A DNA stretch of 64,000 bases, from NCBI GenBank assembly GCA_027487945.1, contig JAIYCQ010000016.1, positions 1 through 64,000 of the forward strand, written 5' to 3'. Position 1 is the first letter of the stretch; the number at the start of each line of letters is the position of its first letter. Shown piece after piece: positions 24,611 to 61,695 of this stretch. The notes under the pieces were generated by a model. That model was given only the letters and a program-made list of their open reading frames with translations. It searched no databases and was not told the origin of the DNA. The translations under genes and the position numbers were made by a program. The stretch comes from Caulobacteraceae bacterium. GTDB taxonomy: Bacteria; Pseudomonadota; Alphaproteobacteria; Caulobacterales; Caulobacteraceae.

Positions 24611-26452
24611 ATGCTGAAGATGAAACTTCTCGCGGCCGGCGCGGTGATCGCCGTCGCCGCCGGGAGCGCAGGCCTTTTCGCCGCCGCCCAGGCCAAGCAG
24701 CCCGCCCCGGCCGCCACGGCGGCGAGGCCCACGCCGGAGCAGGCCCAGGCCTTCGTCGACCGCACCGAAGCCCAGATGGCCGCGCTGTCGCAGTACGTGA
24801 ACCGCGCCTCATGGGTGCGCGCCACCTACATCACCGAAGACACCATGTGGCTGGAGGCCCGGGCCGGCGCCGAGTTCACCGACCTCGCCACCCGCGCCGC
24901 CATCGAGGCGGCGAAGTATGACGGGGTCGCCGTCGACGCGGTGACCCGCCGCAAGCTCGACATCCTCAAGCGCGCCGTGGTCGCCCCGGCCCCGCAGCGG
25001 CCCGGCGCGGCCGACGAGATGGCCACCATCGCCTCGCGTCTGGACTCCGTCTACTCGACCGGCAAGTTCACCTACCAGGGCAAGCCGATCACCCTCAACG
25101 ACGCCGAGGACGTGCTGTCGACCAGCCGCGACCCGGCGGAGCTGAAGGCGGTCTGGGAAGGCTGGCACTCGATTTCGCCGGTCATGAAGGCTGACTACGC
25201 CCGCCTCGTCGCGCTCGAGAACGAGGGCGCGGCCGGCATGGGCTACAAGGACACCGGCGCCCTCTGGCGGTCCGGCTACGACATGGACCCGGATGCCTTC
25301 GCGGCCGAGACCGACCGCCTGTGGAAGCAGATCGAGCCCTTCTACAAGAACCTGCACTGCTACGTCCGGGCCCGGCTGAACGAGCAGTACGGCGACGCGG
25401 TCCAGCCGCGCACCGGCCCGATCCGCGCCGACCTGCTGGGCAACATGTGGGCCCAGCAGTGGGGCAATATCTATCCGATCGTCGCGCCGAAGACCGAGAC
25501 CTCGGGCTACAGCCTCGACCAGCTGCTGGTCGATGCGAAGTACGACCCCACGAAGATGGTCAAGACCGGCGAGGCCTTCTACGTCTCGATGGGTCTGGCG
25601 CCGCTGCCTGAGACCTTCTGGAGCCGCTCGCAGATCGTGCGCCCCGAGGGCCGCGAGGTGGTCTGTCACGCCTCGGCCTGGGACCTCGATGACCGTGACG
25701 ACATCCGCATCAAGATGTGCACCAAGGTCAACGGCGAGGACTTCTACACCGTCCACCACGAGCTCGGTCACAACTACTACCAGCGCGCCTACAAGGATCA
25801 GCCCTACATCTTCAAGAACGGCGCGAACGACGGCTTCCACGAAGCGATCGGCGATTTCGTCGGCCTGTCGGCGCTGACCCCCACCTACCTCAACCAGATC
25901 GGCCTGCTCGAGACCGTGCCCGGCGCGGACGGCGACGTGCCGTTCCTGCTGAAGATGGCGCTCGACAAGATCGCCTTCATGCCGTTCGGCCTGATGGTCG
26001 ACCGCTGGCGCTGGCAGGTGTTCGACGGGACCCTGACGCCGGAGACCTACAACGCCGGCTGGTGGACGCTGCGCACGAAGTACCAGGGCATCACGCCGCC
26101 GGGCGACCGGCCGACCGACGCCTTCGATCCGGGCGCCAAGTACCATGTGCCCGGGAACGTGCCCTACACCCGCTACTTCCTGGCCCATGTGTATCAGTTC
26201 CAGTTCCATGAAGCGGCCTGCCGGCAGGCCGGCTGGAAGGGCCCGCTGCACCGCTGCTCGATCTACGGCAACAAGGAGGTCGGGGCGAAGTTCAACGCCA
26301 TGATGGAGATGGGCGCCTCACGTCCCTGGCCGGACGCCATGGAGGCCTTCACCGGCCAGCGCCAGGGCGACGCCTCGGCGGTGGCTGAGTACTTCAAGCC
26401 GCTGAACGTCTGGCTGACGAAGCAGAACAAGGGCGAGAAGTGCGGCTGGTAG
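24611..26452 (+). CDS. exported M2-family metallopeptidase (ACE-like dipeptidyl carboxypeptidase)
   Basis: A 613-residue secreted zinc peptidase. Signal peptide at about 1-28 (MLKMKLLAAGAVIAVAAGSA). The zinc site is HHELGHNYY with H383-E384-xx-H387 and a third ligand Glu411 in GFHEAIGDFVGLS, the gluzincin spacing. Further M2 motifs include GYDMDPDAFAAETDRLWKQI, LLGNMWAQQWGNIYP and VPYTRYFLAHVYQFQFHEAA. It removes C-terminal dipeptides from peptides in the periplasm. A strong terminator follows it. Confidence 0.96.
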   Translation: MLKMKLLAAGAVIAVAAGSAGLFAAAQAKQPAPAATAARPTPEQAQAFVDRTEAQMAALSQYVNRASWVRATYITEDTMWLEARAGAEFTDLATRAAIEAAKYDGVAVDAVTRRKLDILKRAVVAPAPQRPGAADEMATIASRLDSVYSTGKFTYQGKPITLNDAEDVLSTSRDPAELKAVWEGWHSISPVMKADYARLVALENEGAAGMGYKDTGALWRSGYDMDPDAFAAETDRLWKQIEPFYKNLHCYVRARLNEQYGDAVQPRTGPIRADLLGNMWAQQWGNIYPIVAPKTETSGYSLDQLLVDAKYDPTKMVKTGEAFYVSMGLAPLPETFWSRSQIVRPEGREVVCHASAWDLDDRDDIRIKMCTKVNGEDFYTVHHELGHNYYQRAYKDQPYIFKNGANDGFHEAIGDFVGLSALTPTYLNQIGLLETVPGADGDVPFLLKMALDKIAFMPFGLMVDRWRWQVFDGTLTPETYNAGWWTLRTKYQGITPPGDRPTDAFDPGAKYHVPGNVPYTRYFLAHVYQFQFHEAACRQAGWKGPLHRCSIYGNKEVGAKFNAMMEMGASRPWPDAMEAFTGQRQGDASAVAEYFKPLNVWLTKQNKGEKCGW

Positions 26453-56224: not shown

Positions 56225-57784
56225 ATGACCGACCTCGCCGCCGCCTGGACCGCCTTCGAGACGGCCGCCCGCACCGATTCACAGACCCGAATCGTCGATC
56301 TGTTCGTGGCCGAGCCGGACCGGCTGGCGCGGCTGTCGGTCGAGGTCGCGGGTCTGACCCTCGACCTCAGCAAGCAGCCCTGGAGCGAGGCCGGCCGCCG
56401 CGCTGCCCTCGATCTGGCCCGCGCCGCCGGGGTCGAGGCGCGCCGCGACCGGCAGTTCGCCGGCGAGGCCATCAATGTCACCGAGAACCGCGCCGTGCTG
56501 CACATGGCTTTGCGCGCCCCCGACGGCGCCGACTGGCGGGCGGTCGGCAAGCCGGTCTCCGCCGGGGTCGAGGCGGTGCGCAAGGCCATGGCCGCCTTCG
56601 TCGCCGATGTCCGCGAGGGTCGTCTGCGCGGGGCGACCGGCAAGGCCTTCACCACCGTGCTGCACATCGGCATCGGCGGCAGCGATCTGGGTCCCCGCAT
56701 GGTCTGGCGGGCGCTGAAGCCGCTGGTGCCGCAGGTGGACGTCGCCTTCGTCGGTAACGTCGATCCGGCCGATATCGCCGCCGCCATGGCCCGGCTGGAC
56801 CCGGAGACCACCCTGGTCGTGGTCGCGTCCAAGACCTTCACCACCCAGGAGACCATGGCCAACGCCGCCGCCGCCAGGGCCTGGCTGCGGGGCGCGCTGG
56901 GCGAGGGGGCCGACAGCCATTTCGCCGCCTGCTCGACCAACCTGGACGCCTGCGCGGCCTTCGGCATTCCGGCCAGCCGTGTGTTCGGCTTCGAGGACTG
57001 GGTCGGCGGGCGCTACTCGATCTGGTCGGCGGTCGGGCTGTCGGTGGCCATCGGCCTCGGCTGGGAGGCCTTCGCCGACTTCCTCGCGGGCGCGGCGGCG
57101 ATGGACGACCACTTCAAGGCGACGCCGCTGGAGCGCAACGCCCCGGTGCTGCTGGCGCTCGCCCATGTGTTCAACCGCAACGGCCTTGGCCGGCCCGTCC
57201 GGGTGGTCGAGCCCTATGCCGAGCGGCTCGGCCTGCTGGCCGCCTATCTCCAGCAGCTGGAGATGGAGTCGAACGGCAAGCGGGTCACCGAGGCCGGCGC
57301 GCCGGTCAGTCACGCCACCTCGACCGCCGTGTTCGGCAACGCCGGCACCAACGACCAGCACGCCTTCTTCCAGATGCTGCATCAGGGGACGGACGTCATC
57401 CCGGTCGACTTCGTCGCCGTCGCCCGCGCCGATGAGGGTCCGCCCCGCCAGCACGCCATCCTGCTGGCCAACGCCATCGCGCAGGCCGAGGCGCTGATGA
57501 CCGGCAGCGCCAACGCCGCCGAGCCGCACCGGCACTTCCCCGGCGACCGGCCCTCGAGCTTCATCCTGCTGGAGCAGCTGACCCCGCAAGCCCTGGGCGC
57601 CCTGCTGGCGCTCTATGAGCACAAGGTCTTCGTCGAGGGGACGCTCTGGGGCGTCGACAGCTTCGACCAGTGGGGCGTGGAGCTGGGCAAGACCCTGGCG
57701 AGCAAGGTGCTGGCCGAGCTCGAGGGCGGCGAGCCGGGGGCGCACGATGCGTCGACGGCGGCGCTGATCGGACGGCTGCGGTAA
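56225..57784 (+). CDS. pgi: glucose-6-phosphate isomerase
   Basis: A 519-residue Pgi, which interconverts glucose-6-phosphate and fructose-6-phosphate. Signatures: IGIGGSDLGPRMVWRALKPL, VVASKTFTTQETMANA, FGFEDWVGGRYSIWSAVGLS, AAYLQQLEMESNGKRVTEAG and GTNDQHAFFQMLHQG with the catalytic His; the Lys-containing C-terminus follows (WGVELGKTLASKVLAELEGG). CGGAG is best placed for the ATG at 56225; a GTG at 56219 is in frame. Confidence 0.97.
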   Translation: MTDLAAAWTAFETAARTDSQTRIVDLFVAEPDRLARLSVEVAGLTLDLSKQPWSEAGRRAALDLARAAGVEARRDRQFAGEAINVTENRAVLHMALRAPDGADWRAVGKPVSAGVEAVRKAMAAFVADVREGRLRGATGKAFTTVLHIGIGGSDLGPRMVWRALKPLVPQVDVAFVGNVDPADIAAAMARLDPETTLVVVASKTFTTQETMANAAAARAWLRGALGEGADSHFAACSTNLDACAAFGIPASRVFGFEDWVGGRYSIWSAVGLSVAIGLGWEAFADFLAGAAAMDDHFKATPLERNAPVLLALAHVFNRNGLGRPVRVVEPYAERLGLLAAYLQQLEMESNGKRVTEAGAPVSHATSTAVFGNAGTNDQHAFFQMLHQGTDVIPVDFVAVARADEGPPRQHAILLANAIAQAEALMTGSANAAEPHRHFPGDRPSSFILLEQLTPQALGALLALYEHKVFVEGTLWGVDSFDQWGVELGKTLASKVLAELEGGEPGAHDASTAALIGRLR

Positions 57785-57948
57785 CGCCCTCCCTCCCCTT
57801 CATGGGGAGGCACAGACCTGCGCAGCAGGGCAGGGTGGGGCAAGTGATAGCCACTTCCCACGCGTTGTGAGGATCGCCGCTTGCCCCACCCGTCCCGTCT
57901 CGGCGTCGCCTCGCCGATCCTCCCTCCCCACAAGGGGGAGGGAGGCTA
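57785..57948. repeat. intergenic inverted repeat, family B (copy 3)
   Basis: CGCCCTCCCTCCCCTTCATG then GGGAGG opens it and CCTCCCTCCCCACAAGGGGG then AGGGAGG closes it, with an inner pair GGTGGGGCAAGTG and CGCTTGCCCCACCC. Related in plan to the elements at 21046 and 49766. It forms the first half of the 367-base gap between pgi and hisS; the second half holds the His leader. Confidence 0.75.
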
Positions 57949-57967
57949 GGAATGTGCTTCTTTCTCC

Positions 57968-57976
57968 GCTATAGCC
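57968..57976 (+). promoter_or_regulatory. candidate -10 element for the his operon
   Basis: GCTATAGCC (57968-57976) resembles the -10 consensus GCTANAWC known for housekeeping promoters in Caulobacter. It ends nine bases before the ATG of the His leader, so transcription would start at or very near that ATG and the leader might be translated without a 5' UTR. No clear -35 is seen. Confidence 0.4.
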
Positions 57977-57984
57977 CCGCCCCG

Positions 57985-58059
57985 ATGACCCGCGCCGCGC
58001 ACCACCATCACGCCTGCCACGCCATCCCTCGCGGGACGGATCGGGTTCGCGCGGCCTGA
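57985..58059 (+). CDS. histidine-rich leader peptide of the hisS-hisZ-hisG operon
   Basis: A 24-codon frame, too short to be listed as a gene, reads MTRAAHHHHACHA and ends at TGA 58057-58059. Five of its first twelve codons are His, four of them in a row (58000-58011). It stands 92 bases before hisS in the same direction. This is the classical attenuator design: ribosome stalling at His codons when charged tRNA-His is scarce changes the fold downstream. The finding rests on the run of His codons and the position, both seen directly. Confidence 0.8.
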   Translation: MTRAAHHHHACHAIPRGTDRVRAA

Positions 58060-58104
58060 CGGCCAGACGCACACCCTCCGGCCCCGCCCGACGCGGAGGG
58101 GGCC
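58049..58104 (+). promoter_or_regulatory. candidate his attenuator hairpins
   Basis: A small hairpin GGCC-TGAC-GGCC (58053-58064) spans the leader stop, flanked by GCG/CGC. A downstream stem CCCTCCG (58074-58080) with CGGAGGG (58094-58100) competes with GGCCCC (58080-58085) pairing to GGGGCC (58099-58104). No U-tract follows, so control may be by hiding the hisS start or by Rho rather than simple termination. Confidence 0.55.
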
Positions 58105-58151
58105 AGTCACGGCTCCATCCGACCCTCGAAGTCCTGATGTAGAGCCGCCTG

Positions 58152-59621
58152 ATGACCGAAGAGACCTTCCGCCCCGAAGCCCGCGCCCCTCGAGGGTTCG
58201 CCGACAAGCGCGCCGCCACCCTGCGCGCCGAGCGGCGGATCGTGGAGGCGGTGTCGAAGGTCTATGAGCTGTGGGGCTTCGAGCCGCTCGACACCGGGGC
58301 GTTCGAGTACGCCGACGCGCTGGGCAAGTTCCTGCCCGACAGCGACCGGCCCAACGAGGGCGTGTTCGCGCTGCAGGACGACGACGAGCAGTGGATGGCC
58401 CTGCGCTACGACCTGACCGCGCCGCTGGCCCGGTTCGCGGCGCAAAACTGGGAGACCCTGCCCAAGCCGTTCCGCCGCTACGCCTTCGGGCCGGTCTGGC
58501 GCAACGAGAAGCCCGGCCCCGGCCGGTTCCGCGAGTTCATCCAGTGCGACGCCGATACGGTCGGCTCGGCCCGCCCCGAAGCCGACGCCGAGATCATCGC
58601 CATGGCGGCGGCGGGGCTCGAGGCGGCGGGGCTGGCCAGGGGCCAGGCGGTGCTGAAATTCTCCAACCGCAAGATCCTCGACGGGGTCATGGTCGCCGCC
58701 GGCGTCGCCGAGGGCCGCCAGAAGCTCACCGTGCTGCGGGCGCTCGACAAGCTCGACCGGCTGGGCCGCGACGGGGTCCGTGACCTGCTCGGCAAGGGCC
58801 GGCTGGACGAGTCGGGCGCCTTCACCCCGGGCGCCGAGCTGTCGACGGCGGCGGCGGGCCTTGTGCTCGACTTTCTCGACATGGCCGTGGCCGGCGCGCC
58901 GCTGGACCAGCTGGCCGCCGCGCCGTTCGCCCAGGCCGACGCCGCCCTTGAAGGCTTCCGCGAGCTGGAGGCGATCATCGCCGCCCTCAAGGGCCTCGGC
59001 ATCGACGACACCCAGGCGCTGTTCGATCCCTCGATCGTCCGCGGGCTGGAATACTACACCGGCGCGGTGTTCGAGGCCGACCTGCTGATCGAGACGCCCG
59101 ACGAGAAGGGCAATCCGGTCCGCTTCGGCTCCATCGGCGGCGGCGGGCGCTATGACGATCTGGTGGCGCGCTTCACCGGCGAGCGGACCCCGGCGACAGG
59201 CTTCTCGTTCGGCGTGTCGCGGCTGGCGGCGGCGCTGAAGGCGGCCGGACGCGAGGCGGCGGGCGAGGGACGGGGCCCGGTGGTCATCATCGCCTTCGAC
59301 CAGGCGCGGATGGCCGACTATTTCGCCGTGGCGGGCGAGCTGCGGAGCGCCGGCATCGCCGCCGAGGTCTATCTCGGAACCTCCGGCATGCGGCCGCAGA
59401 TGAAGTATGCGGACCGTCGTCTGGCGCCGGCCGCCATCATCATCGGCGAGGATGAGTTCGCCGCCGGCACGGCCACGGTCAAGGACCTCGACCTCGGCCG
59501 CGACCTGTCGAAGAACGTCACCGACAACGCCGCCTGGAAGGCCGAGCGGCCGGGCCAGCAGACGGTCGCCCGGGCCGACCTGGTGGCCACCGTCCGCAAG
59601 ATCGTCGAGGCCGCGCAATGA
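58152..59621 (+). CDS. hisS: histidyl-tRNA synthetase
   Basis: A 489-residue class II synthetase. Motif 2 is FRRYAFGPVWRNEKPGPGRF followed by REFIQCDADTVG; histidine-specific motifs are RGLEYYTGAVFEADL and GSIGGGGRYDDLVARF; motif 3 is GFSFGVSRLAAAL. The C-terminal anticodon-binding domain follows (VVIIAFDQARMADYFAVAGE). It charges tRNA-His. It overlaps hisZ by four bases (ATGA) and stands behind a His-rich leader, so its product level likely responds to tRNA-His charging. Confidence 0.97.
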   Translation: MTEETFRPEARAPRGFADKRAATLRAERRIVEAVSKVYELWGFEPLDTGAFEYADALGKFLPDSDRPNEGVFALQDDDEQWMALRYDLTAPLARFAAQNWETLPKPFRRYAFGPVWRNEKPGPGRFREFIQCDADTVGSARPEADAEIIAMAAAGLEAAGLARGQAVLKFSNRKILDGVMVAAGVAEGRQKLTVLRALDKLDRLGRDGVRDLLGKGRLDESGAFTPGAELSTAAAGLVLDFLDMAVAGAPLDQLAAAPFAQADAALEGFRELEAIIAALKGLGIDDTQALFDPSIVRGLEYYTGAVFEADLLIETPDEKGNPVRFGSIGGGGRYDDLVARFTGERTPATGFSFGVSRLAAALKAAGREAAGEGRGPVVIIAFDQARMADYFAVAGELRSAGIAAEVYLGTSGMRPQMKYADRRLAPAAIIIGEDEFAAGTATVKDLDLGRDLSKNVTDNAAWKAERPGQQTVARADLVATVRKIVEAAQ

Positions 59622-60742
59622 GACTGGAGCCCGCCATTCCGCAGGCCGCGCTGGCCGCCATCCGCGCGCCGTTCGCCCGGGCCGGCGCCACGCCGGTCGA
59701 GGCGCCCGTACTGCTGCCGCTGGCCCTGCTGCTCGACCTGTCGGGCGAGGCGATGCGTCCGCGGCTGTTCGTGGTCCAGGCCGAGGGCGGCGAGGAGCTG
59801 GCCCTGCGGCCCGACTTCACCATTCCGGTGGCCCGCGCCCACATCGACAGCGGGGCGGCGCAGGGTCGCTACGCCTATGAGGGCAAGGCCTTCCGCGCCG
59901 CACCGGCCGGCTCGCAGCGGGCCGAGGAGTTCCTGCAGATCGGCGTCGAGCTGTTCGGCAACGGCGATCCGGCCGTCTCGGATGCCGAGGTCGCGGCCCT
60001 GGCCTGGCAGTCCGCCGCGGCGGGCGGTCGCGACGACCTGACCCTGACCTTCGGCGATATCGCGCTGTTCAGCGCCTTCATCGACAGCCTGGCCCTGGCG
60101 CCGGCGCTGGCGGCGCGGCTCAAGCGGCTGTTCACCCGGCCGCGCCTGCTGGCCGCCGAGCTCGATCGCGCCGACGCCGGCGCGACCGTCGAACGCATCG
60201 TCAACCCGCTGGAGGGCGTGCCCGACGGGCAGGGCCCCGAGGCGCTGCGCCAGCTCTGGGCCATCGCCGGCATCGAGCCGGTCGGGACCCGGCCGCCGGA
60301 GGAGATCGTCCGCCGTCTGGCCGACCGGGCCGAGGCCTCGCGCACGCCGAGCCTTTCGCCGGCCGAGGCCGCCGCCGTACGGGGCTTCCTCTCGGTGTCC
60401 GGCCCACCGGACGCGGCCCTTGCCGAGGTTCGCCGGCTCGCCGGTCCGTCCACCGCGGCGCTCGATGCGGCCACGGACGGTTGGGCGCGGCGGCTCGTCG
60501 GCCTGGCGGAGCGCGGCGTGCCCGGCGATCGCCTGACCTTCGCCGCCGCCTTCGGCCGGGCCTTCGGCTACTACGACGGCGCCCTGTTCGAGGTGCGCAG
60601 CGCGGCGCTGGGCGATGAGCGTCCGGTCGCCGCCGGCGGCCGCTACGACGGCCTGCCGGCCCGGCTCGGCGCGGCCACGACGCTCGGGGCGGTGGGCTGC
60701 ATGGTCCGTCCGGCCCGGGCTTTCGCGGGAGGCATGGAATGA
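59618..60742 (+). CDS. hisZ: ATP phosphoribosyltransferase regulatory subunit
   Basis: A 374-residue HisRS-like paralogue without the synthetase's catalytic histidine motifs in full. It has LALRPDFTIPVARAHIDSGA, GRYAYEGKAFRAAP, QRAEEFLQIGVELFGNGDPA and a late AAGGRYDGLPARLGA. HisZ binds short-form HisG and makes it active and sensitive to histidine. It overlaps both hisS and hisG by four bases, so all three are coupled. Confidence 0.94.
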   Translation: MRLEPAIPQAALAAIRAPFARAGATPVEAPVLLPLALLLDLSGEAMRPRLFVVQAEGGEELALRPDFTIPVARAHIDSGAAQGRYAYEGKAFRAAPAGSQRAEEFLQIGVELFGNGDPAVSDAEVAALAWQSAAAGGRDDLTLTFGDIALFSAFIDSLALAPALAARLKRLFTRPRLLAAELDRADAGATVERIVNPLEGVPDGQGPEALRQLWAIAGIEPVGTRPPEEIVRRLADRAEASRTPSLSPAEAAAVRGFLSVSGPPDAALAEVRRLAGPSTAALDAATDGWARRLVGLAERGVPGDRLTFAAAFGRAFGYYDGALFEVRSAALGDERPVAAGGRYDGLPARLGAATTLGAVGCMVRPARAFAGGME

Positions 60743-61695
60743 ACGGTCCCCTCATCCTGGCCATCCCCTCCAAAGGACGGCTGAAGGAACAGGTCGACGC
60801 CTGGCTGGCCGATGCCGGCCTGCCCTTGTCGGCCCCTGCCGGCGGACGCGGCTACACCGCCCGGATCGAGGCCCTGCCGTCGATCGAGGTGCGGCTGCTG
60901 TCGGCCTCGGACATCGCCTCGGCGCTGGACAGCGGCGAGGTCCACCTGGGCGTCACCGGCGAGGACCTGCTGCGCGAACAGATCGCCGACCTGGACAACC
61001 GGGTGGCGCTGCTGCGGTCGCTCGGCTTCGGCCGCGCTGACCTGATCGTCGCCGTGCCGCGCGGCTGGCTGGACGTCGACACCATGGCCGACCTGGAGGA
61101 GGTGGCGCACCAGCACCTGGTTCGCACCGGCCGCCGCCTGCGGGTGGCGACCAAATACATCGCCCAGACCCGCGCCTTCTTCACGAAGAACGGTGTCGCC
61201 GATTACCGCATCGTCGAGTCGGGCGGCGCCACCGAAGGGGCCCCGGCCTCGGGCGCCGCGGAGATTATCGTCGACATCACCACCACCGGCGCCACGCTCG
61301 CCGCCAATCACCTCAAGATCCTCGGCGACGGGGTCATCCTGAAGAGCCAGGCCCGGCTCGCCGCCTCCCTCACGGCCGACTGGGATGCCGGCCGCCTCGG
61401 CGTGGTGCGCCAGCTGCTCGGCGTGGTGGAGGCCCGCGCCCGGGCGCGGAGCAGTGTCATGCTGGTCTGGCCGGCCGAGCAGGACGCCGGGGCCCGCGCG
61501 GCGCTGGCCGCCCTGGTCGAGGCCGGCGCCCGGCCCCGGGCCAACGGCCTTCTGTTGCGCGAGGGCGACCTTCTCGCCGCCCAGGCCGCCCTGGCCTCGG
61601 CCGGGGTCGGCCCCGTGGCCGCGACTCGGCCCGAGCACCTGTTCGAGCCGCTCTCCGAGGCCGCCGAGTCGCTGGCGGCACGCGTAACGGTGTAA
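60739..61695 (+). CDS. hisG: ATP phosphoribosyltransferase
   Basis: A 318-residue HisG, first step of histidine synthesis. Core motifs: LAIPSKGRLKEQVDAWL, VHLGVTGEDLLREQI, TGRRLRVATKYIAQTRAFF and the PRPP loop IIVDITTTGATLAANHLKIL. HisG that works with HisZ is usually about 210-230 residues; here about 90 residues follow the core (about 228-318: SSVMLVWPAEQDAGARAALA and on), like a degenerate extra domain. No break in frame is seen. The stop is followed at once by a palindrome. Confidence 0.96.
   Translation: MNGPLILAIPSKGRLKEQVDAWLADAGLPLSAPAGGRGYTARIEALPSIEVRLLSASDIASALDSGEVHLGVTGEDLLREQIADLDNRVALLRSLGFGRADLIVAVPRGWLDVDTMADLEEVAHQHLVRTGRRLRVATKYIAQTRAFFTKNGVADYRIVESGGATEGAPASGAAEIIVDITTTGATLAANHLKILGDGVILKSQARLAASLTADWDAGRLGVVRQLLGVVEARARARSSVMLVWPAEQDAGARAALAALVEAGARPRANGLLLREGDLLAAQAALASAGVGPVAATRPEHLFEPLSEAAESLAARVTV

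Follow-up and report, generated by a model that had tools for sequence, protein, structure and literature searches.

Analysis of the window, a stretch of 64,000 nucleotides of a Caulobacteraceae genome, suggests that the region before hisS is probably a ribosome-operated histidine attenuator of hisS-hisZ-hisG that acts mainly at the level of translation. Comparison with relatives argues for the leader frame, for two competing RNA helices (2:3 and 3:4) and for coevolution of segment 4 with segment 5; we infer in addition a leaderless start, ribosome stalling, an order of folding, a direction of the switch, a response to histidine and translation of the frame itself. The initial annotation, made from the letters alone, had read the region as a His-leader attenuator, and the sequence comparison supports that reading. 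The features of the region are as follows.

57969..57975, + strand: -10-like element CTATAGC; predicted transcription start within a few bases of the leader ATG (motif spacing)
57985..58059, + strand: His-rich leader peptide, MTRAAHHHHACHAIPRGTDRVRAA and stop (sequence; leader kept in relatives; CAC/CAT interchange)
58000..58020, + strand: predicted regulatory His codons 6-9 and 12 (sequence; His columns of the alignment)
58030..58056, + strand: segment 1, located in the final codons of the leader; partner of segment 2 (fold; alignment A1, 78.0% of cells paired)
58078..58090, + strand: segment 2 (CCGGCCCCGCCCG); pairs with segment 1 or 3 (2:3 pairing counts)
58092..58104, + strand: segment 3 (CGCGGAGGGGGCC); pairs with segment 2 or 4 (alignment, pairing counts)
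58110..58121, + strand: segment 4 (CGGCTCCATCCG); pairs with segment 3 or 5 (pairing counts, permutation, covariation)
58136..58147, + strand: segment 5 (GATGTAGAGCCG), with a weak SD-like GAG at 58142-58144 and AUG-UAG; predicted to be maskable by segment 4 (pairing, permutation, covariation)
58152..59621, + strand: hisS, histidine--tRNA ligase (TIGR00442)
59618..60742, + strand: hisZ, ATP phosphoribosyltransferase regulatory subunit (NF008949; ATGA overlap with hisS)
60739..61695, + strand: hisG, ATP phosphoribosyltransferase (TIGR00070; ATGA overlap with hisZ)

The leader frame and its surroundings

The leader frame runs on the + strand from the ATG at 57985 to the stop TGA at 58057-58059 and has 24 codons, encoding MTRAAHHHHACHAIPRGTDRVRAA, of which five are His (positions 6-9 and 12); its ATG lies 167 bases upstream of the hisS ATG at 58152. 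This hidden frame, with four of its five His codons in a row, had been pointed out in the initial annotation and is confirmed in the sequence, and the identities then given to hisS, hisZ and hisG are borne out by TIGR00442, NF008949 and TIGR00070. The gene upstream of the leader is pgi. The genome resembles that of a Caulobacter, its nearest named record being a Caulobacter MAG whose HisS is 98% identical. The gap between pgi and the leader (57784-57948) is a dispersed repeat of about 160 bases, which has nine near-full copies in the genome, including that of the window, and other partial ones.

Taken alone, the His frame of the window is mildly unusual. When His-rich ORFs were defined as having 10 to 45 residues with at least four His within 10 residues, the whole 64-kb window contained one further such ORF, at 24811 on the + strand; the - strand had none. 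Searching the genome with a covariance model of the hisS leader (R1), we found the next match after the leader at E 0.113, the value for the leader itself, 4.2e-19, following from the construction of the model; four matches that were inspected appear to fall within genes. In the main his operon of this genome (6.5 kb taken), where hisF was identified by TIGR00735 and the neighbours hisB, hisH and hisA were named from reading of the sequence, the sole small frame with three His in 10 residues sits inside a hisA-like ORF.

Conservation of the leader

HisS searches of the genus, the family and the collection gathered 223 loci, which were reduced to 172 distinct upstream regions by leaving out two loci that lack the N-terminus of hisS (L015, L055) as well as duplicates and loci with short flanks. 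A leader by the above definition precedes hisS in 132 of these 172 Caulobacteraceae regions. Such conservation speaks against a chance ORF, which we consider ruled out by it together with the codon pattern. The leader was found in 57/60 regions of the window's genus, 23/23 of g7, 2/2 of g16, 2/5 of g22, the single region each of g4, g6 and g19, and 45 of the 58 named records without a genus label; it was absent from the regions of g3 (0/6), g21 (0/4), g20 (0/3), g15 and g18 (0/2 each), and g5, g9, g10 and g12 (0/1 each).

In the main His columns of the alignment, CAC and CAT are swapped, the first two bases being mostly constant and the third base the most variable. The last His column is His in all 132 leaders (CAC in 26, CAT in 106), and two His columns are mixed (His in 17/129 and 36/75). 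Over all sequence pairs, columns with His in either sequence hold 13455 synonymous versus 13877 non-synonymous differences. The remainder of the leader peptide is variable across relatives. Differences of leader length in whole codons were not counted as evidence, since the frames had been picked as ORFs. Among 69 loci with full flanks, hisZ lies downstream of hisS in all, and a pgi match lies upstream in 32.

Three loci of the window's genus, L152, L153 and L036, have no His leader. In L036, whose hisS upstream region is on the reverse strand, AT-rich DNA replaces the promoter and the His codons, and the element from segment 1 on is kept; R1 matches it over model positions 50-148. The sequence of this locus suggests that the sensor half was lost naturally. 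When R1 was run on the 40 hisS loci without the leader, L036 scored 72.8 bits, and the three other matches were at E 0.11 or worse. By eye, L152 and L153 have a promoter-like site right at hisS, and a promoter-like pair (e.g., TTGCCG ... GCTAAG) was seen directly before the hisS ATG in these two, in L103, L111 and L121, and in other loci without the leader. Where the His leader is absent, the hisS mRNA itself would be leaderless. A similar pair was also seen by eye before the hisS ATG of the leader-bearing loci L087, L096, L113 and L115, in which a promoter next to hisS could allow the leader to be bypassed.

Beyond the family, HisS had a match in 360 of 372 genomes of the class, and the best 30 loci were examined, 29 of them new (L298-L326), three of these belonging to the same family. 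Among the 29, L308, from the same order and another family, has a different His leader, MNTALHHHHHHS followed by a stop, before hisS, with another fold; it also gave the single, weak match of R1 in this set (E 0.028). Frames in L303 and L314, having only three His close together, were taken as chance.

Start of the transcript

CTATAG occupies 57969-57974 and is followed by ten bases and then by the leader ATG. Of the 132 leaders, 109 have a [GC]TAnA motif beginning at position -17 to -13 relative to their start codon; elsewhere between -45 and -5 the motif occurs once. Given the usual spacing of bacterial promoters, such a -10 motif places the RNA start at the AUG or a few bases from it. The fixed spacing thus suggests a leaderless transcript; the doubt that the initial annotation raised over the closeness of the -10 element holds, and we regard the transcript as probably leaderless. 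A simple scan of 57780-58200 revealed no E. coli-type promoter. In Caulobacter crescentus, 375 leaderless mRNAs with similar translation efficiency are reported (PMC4117421).

Competing helices downstream of the frame

Pairing was counted on alignment A1, which contains 83 leaders, 82 of them distinct. A single RNAalifold consensus fold had no more than 10 pairs at an energy of -3.69, possibly owing to columns common to structures that exclude each other, and it was replaced by separate counts for each helix. Helix 2:3 is paired in 95.7% of cells, with two pairs changed on both sides, and helix 3:4 in 95.4%, with four pairs changed on both sides; at one pair of 3:4, 23 sequences have C-G instead of U-A. 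When the 3' side of either helix was shifted by one to three columns, 31-58% of cells paired. The covariation score is 0.124 versus 0.079 in shuffled alignments for 2:3, and 0.161 versus a shuffled mean of 0.095 for 3:4, neither value being reached in 500 shuffles, a comparison that is inflated by the relatedness of the sequences. A measure of further pair types was ordinary (63/500 shuffles for 3:4, 272/500 for 2:3). Helix 1:2 is the weakest, with 78.0% of cells paired versus 68.7% when slid by one column, and is thus partly backed by the comparison. In the window, segment 3 has a G in place of the T or C of most relatives, which costs 2:3 and 3:4 one pair each.

Read on the hisS strand, 2:3 and 3:4 together have 78 G.U versus 7 A.C cells, and this excess points to the hisS strand as the structured RNA; for 1:2 the counts are 32 G.U and 40 A.C. 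Because segment 3 is used in both, 2:3 and 3:4 are mutually exclusive, and 3:4 and 4:5, which share segment 4, likewise exclude each other. Mutually exclusive, conserved RNA helices, as in an attenuator, are therefore found downstream of the leader frame. The initial annotation had supposed competing hairpins there; they are present in the folds, with comparative counts for 2:3, 3:4 and 4:5. Retention of the His codons and stems in relatives, on which its reading depended, was examined, and both are kept (leader in 132/172 regions; 2:3 and 3:4 each more than 95% paired).

Possible pairing of segment 4 near the hisS start

Segment 5 ends four bases before the hisS ATG, and the SD of hisS in the window is weak. 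Segment 5 also contains AUG-UAG (58137-58142), fifteen bases before the hisS ATG, which is present in six of the nine sequences of alignment A2, representing the clade of the window. In 46 of 131 leaders (these counts exclude L204, in which no segment 3 was found), the ATG that comes first downstream of segment 4 is no open in-frame start for hisS, which weighs against the proposed switch; in the window, it is that of AUG-UAG. In L096, L113, L097 and L115, a second short frame opens at segment 5 and stops shortly ahead of hisS, and in some other relatives the frame beginning at the segment 5 site continues into hisS.

Segment 4 is complementary to a stretch that lies immediately ahead of the next start codon or overlaps it, with a pairing that differs between clades: in the main Caulobacter group CAU(C)CGUCG of segment 4 matches CGACGAUG, in another group AUCCCU matches AGGGAU, and in the window GGCUCCAUC matches GAUGuaGAGCC. 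The duplex of each leader's own segment 4 and start region was compared with those of permuted partners. Own pairs were more stable in the first run (37 representatives, with 1/5000 permutations as good), with refined segments (43 representatives, z -4.08, 0/3000) and in a curated run (39 representatives, z -4.59, 0/5000), from which the representatives with misplaced segments, L109, L147, L150 and L202, kept in the uncurated run, were left out. Control windows 10, 20, 30 and 40 bases upstream gave z +1.0, +0.7, +2.0 and +1.1 in the curated run. In the uncurated run, controls between -60 and -10 ranged from z -0.3 to +3.2; thus, the permuted null is not neutral.

In A2, five sequences have A and four have G at one position of segment 4, and the opposing bases of segments 3 and 5 agree with it in nine of nine each: the base forms UA (five) or CG (four) with segment 3, and AU (five) or GC (four) with segment 5. 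Shuffles of the nine sequences equalled the observed score in 6/500 and 5/500, and for 2:3 in 53/500. HisS of L004, with A-U, is 94% identical and that of L005, with G-C, 88% identical, so that the A-U/G-C switch seems to have taken more than one change on the tree. By comparison, segment 4 can pair with the hisS start region, with covariation, as in a translational attenuator.

Proposed switch

We propose the following mechanism. The leaderless mRNA would begin at or beside the leader AUG. When charged tRNA-His is scarce, the ribosome would stall on the His run and leave segment 1 free, so that 1:2 forms; 3:4 could then pair, leaving the hisS start region (segment 5) open, which is the ON state. 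With ample histidine, the ribosome would reach the leader stop and cover segment 1, and 2:3 would pair as it emerges; segment 4 could then pair with segment 5 and hide the ribosome-binding region of hisS, giving the OFF state. hisZ and hisG, joined by ATGA overlaps, would come under common control with hisS.

We folded 131 leaders with a blocked ribosome footprint at the first His, the last His or the stop. With RNA up to segment 3, the mean probability of 1:2 was 0.85, 0.77 and 0.16, respectively, and that of 2:3 was 0.45, 0.91 and 0.85; since 2:3 is as probable at the last His as at the stop, the contrast requires a stall early in the run. With RNA up to segment 4, the mean probability of 3:4 was 0.92 at the first His, 0.86 at the last His and 0.60 at the stop, where 2:3 had a mean of 0.38. 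From the stop to the first His, the probability of 3:4 rose by more than 0.2 in 59 leaders and fell in one. These folds suggest that stalling favours 1:2 and 3:4, with an open start, and that reaching the stop favours 2:3, with segment 4 free to mask.

When segment 5 was included at equilibrium, 4:5 was favoured in all ribosome states (means 0.75-0.89), and the accessibility of the start differed between states by a mean of only 0.012; in the window alone, each of the four states had 4:5 close to 1.0 and 3:4 close to 0. In this model, equilibrium folding by itself fails to reproduce the switch, and since 4:5 is favoured in every state, a working switch would need kinetic control. The succession in which helices fold on the growing transcript would then have to matter, a dependence generally attributed to known attenuators.

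Rfam families at the same DNA

The Rfam model His_leader (RF00514), of the leader of the enteric his operon, matched neither the window (E up to 1) nor 10 sources of relatives (E up to 0.01), and the T-box model gave no match in the window or the relatives scanned. A match of HepC_CRE in the window, at 13.6 bits versus a gathering score of 140, was taken as chance. RF01528, the small RNA CC3513, reached its gathering score in six of the 10 sources of relatives (best 133.4 bits), with two more below gathering; L020 and L232 are the same locus, which makes five of nine distinct loci plus the two. Every one of these matches lies on the strand opposite to hisS. RF01528 did not match the window (E up to 1), nor the hisS strand in the relatives scanned. 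On these matches, the C. crescentus sRNA CC3513 is, by sequence, the hisS leader DNA read on the other strand. Two previously predicted ncRNAs of C. crescentus are reported to be in fact translated (PMC4117421).

Analogous leaders before asd, thrS and other genes

R1 also finds alphaproteobacterial leaders that are rich in Thr codons, or in Thr, Lys, Ile and Met codons. With stricter search filters, 39 of 299 genomes of the order had a match at E<=0.001 and 23 of 385 genomes of the class, including that of the window, at E<=0.01. By eye, 12 of the 22 class loci (L261-L282) are leader-like and 10 are not; of 12 order loci examined, 11 are leader-like. The downstream gene was checked in six loci and is asd in L263, L284 and L287, thrS in L261 and L266, and a gene with aspartate kinase and homoserine dehydrogenase domains (AK-HSD) in L283; the names at the other loci come from reading of the sequences. 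Leaders rich in Thr, Lys, Ile and Met were observed before asd in L284, L285, L286, L287, L291, L263, L271 and others, as if they sensed several products of the aspartate pathway at once. Thr-rich leaders were observed before thrS or thrS-like genes in L261, L264, L265, L266 and L269, which come from other alphaproteobacteria; the proteins of L261 and L266 match TIGR00418 only from profile position 170 on.

Of 21 asd, thrS and AK-HSD leaders, 16 were kept after removal of five near-duplicates, and their own helices with the SD region were more stable than permuted ones (z -3.86, 2/5000). In 10 of the 21, the best helix begins 34-50 bases ahead of the start codon, at the position of segment 4, and in the other 11 it begins further upstream. 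Several of these leaders have T-runs after 2:3. Rfam scans of ten analogue loci gave no family at gathering score for the leaders, the one match being a SAM riboswitch elsewhere in L283. We tentatively suggest, with some reserve, that these may all belong to a wider alphaproteobacterial kind of attenuator, in which a leaderless or near-leaderless codon-rich frame would be followed by a common five-segment switch whose last segment masks the ribosome-binding region of the next gene. Its members would precede hisS (His), thrS (Thr), asd (Thr, Lys, Ile, Met) and AK-HSD (Thr, Met), with CC3513 as the hisS member on the wrong strand.

Alternative explanations

One alternative is classical transcription attenuation, in which 2:3 (or 3:4) would end transcription at high histidine, intrinsically or via Rho, and the pairing of segment 5 would be secondary; we consider this unlikely, and the transcriptional and translational levels may act together. 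A simple scan of 57780-58200 detected no intrinsic-terminator-like site, and the lack of a U-tract noted in the initial annotation holds over the same interval. Among 127 hisS leaders (L109, L147, L150 and L202 being left out), the eight bases that follow GGGG in segment 3 contain at most three T in 110 and at least five in seven, L072 being the T-richest and clearest case. These counts make an added transcriptional step possible in some relatives and an intrinsic terminator unlikely in the window. The seven T-rich hisS leaders, the T-rich loci of the asd/thrS type such as L269, L271 and L283, and C. crescentus ilvIH, described as transcription attenuation (PMC4117421), speak for such termination, but the window and the 110 leaders poor in T do not fit it, and the coevolution of segment 4 with the start region would need another cause. 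The opposite logic, with 3:4 as OFF and 2:3 as ON, as in the trp leader, seems to us decidedly improbable. The direction is not settled by the folds, and in the free leader lacking segment 5 the highest mean pair probabilities are those of 3:4. However, the His codons lie upstream of segment 1, and a ribosome stalled early leaves segment 1 free and favours 3:4; moreover, 3:4 excludes 4:5, which covers the start region, and the T-runs of the analogous leaders come after 2:3, not 3:4, which fits 2:3 as the OFF side.

Two further readings dispense with a sensor on the hisS mRNA. The conserved element might be the antisense sRNA RF01528 (CC3513) and the His frame its by-product; although the matches on the opposite strand in relatives are strong (up to 133.4 bits versus a gathering score of 40), we give this very little credence. 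The excess of G.U over A.C in 2:3 and 3:4 (78 versus 7), the codon pattern and the promoter spacing all fit the hisS strand, and the window itself has no match to RF01528 at E up to 1. It is hardly credible, too, that the frame encodes a working His-rich micropeptide, for example a metal-binding one: the His run is strong and well conserved, but the rest of the peptide is variable, R1 finds no second copy in the window's genome, and the counted leaders precede hisS (the place that was searched for them), and complementary RNA segments follow directly after them.

Relation to known systems

Leader-peptide attenuators, His leaders, aminoacyl-tRNA synthetase leaders of Caulobacter and leaderless leaders with amino-acid runs are already known kinds. 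The hisS region resembles the enteric his leader in its short leader peptide with a His run, its competing hairpins and its target in histidine biosynthesis. The target of the enteric leader is the his operon, with a terminator (PMC9413887), whereas here hisS leads the operon, from a probably leaderless transcript, and the window has no terminator-like site or His_leader match. In bacilli, His leader peptides precede a paralogue of hisS (hisS*) and hisZ, likewise a His-codon leader ahead of a hisS paralogue or hisZ; however, these belong to the Bacillus group and were found via Rho-independent terminators, and neither a leaderless start nor start masking is stated in the portion seen of PMC2965389. 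The leaderless polycysteine ORFs of mycobacteria (Canestrari 2020, as described in PMC9031893) are similar in that a leaderless ORF with a run of one residue regulates translation of the next gene, but they concern cysteine, mycobacteria and other genes, and the likeness is one of description. RF01528 covers the same stretch of DNA in Caulobacter relatives but is modelled on the opposite strand as an sRNA gene. Vitreschak reportedly made a comparative study of proteobacterial attenuators in 2004, which may hold relevant predictions.

The closest case by taxonomy is C. crescentus, in which ribosome profiling revealed leader CDSs before trpS, ileS and ilvIH (PMC4117421); the trpS and ileS leaders are frames ahead of aminoacyl-tRNA synthetase genes in the same group. 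The strings hisS and histid- are absent from the main text of that paper, and its Dataset S1 may list a hisS leader. Word searches of open papers found no description of a hisS leader in Caulobacteraceae, and a literature search for CC3513 or Caulobacter gave no mention of CC3513 among the matches listed. The initial annotation had held that attenuation of hisS was undescribed in this group; this stands for hisS in the open papers searched, but the reported trpS and ileS leader CDSs make a synthetase leader there less new than it had supposed. On the sequence evidence, the new element is the proposed masking of the hisS start region, with one base of segment 4 that covaries with two partners.

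Biological meaning

If this proposal is true, one sensor would govern both how much charged tRNA-His is supplied and the first committed reaction of histidine synthesis, in a model genus. The region would be a covariation-backed candidate for amino-acid attenuation by masking of a ribosome-binding region, operated from a probably leaderless leader. In high-GC bacteria, searches based on terminators could miss such attenuators, and R1 as a search template already finds analogous thrS and asd leaders. The leader may also account for an sRNA family that Rfam lists for C. crescentus.
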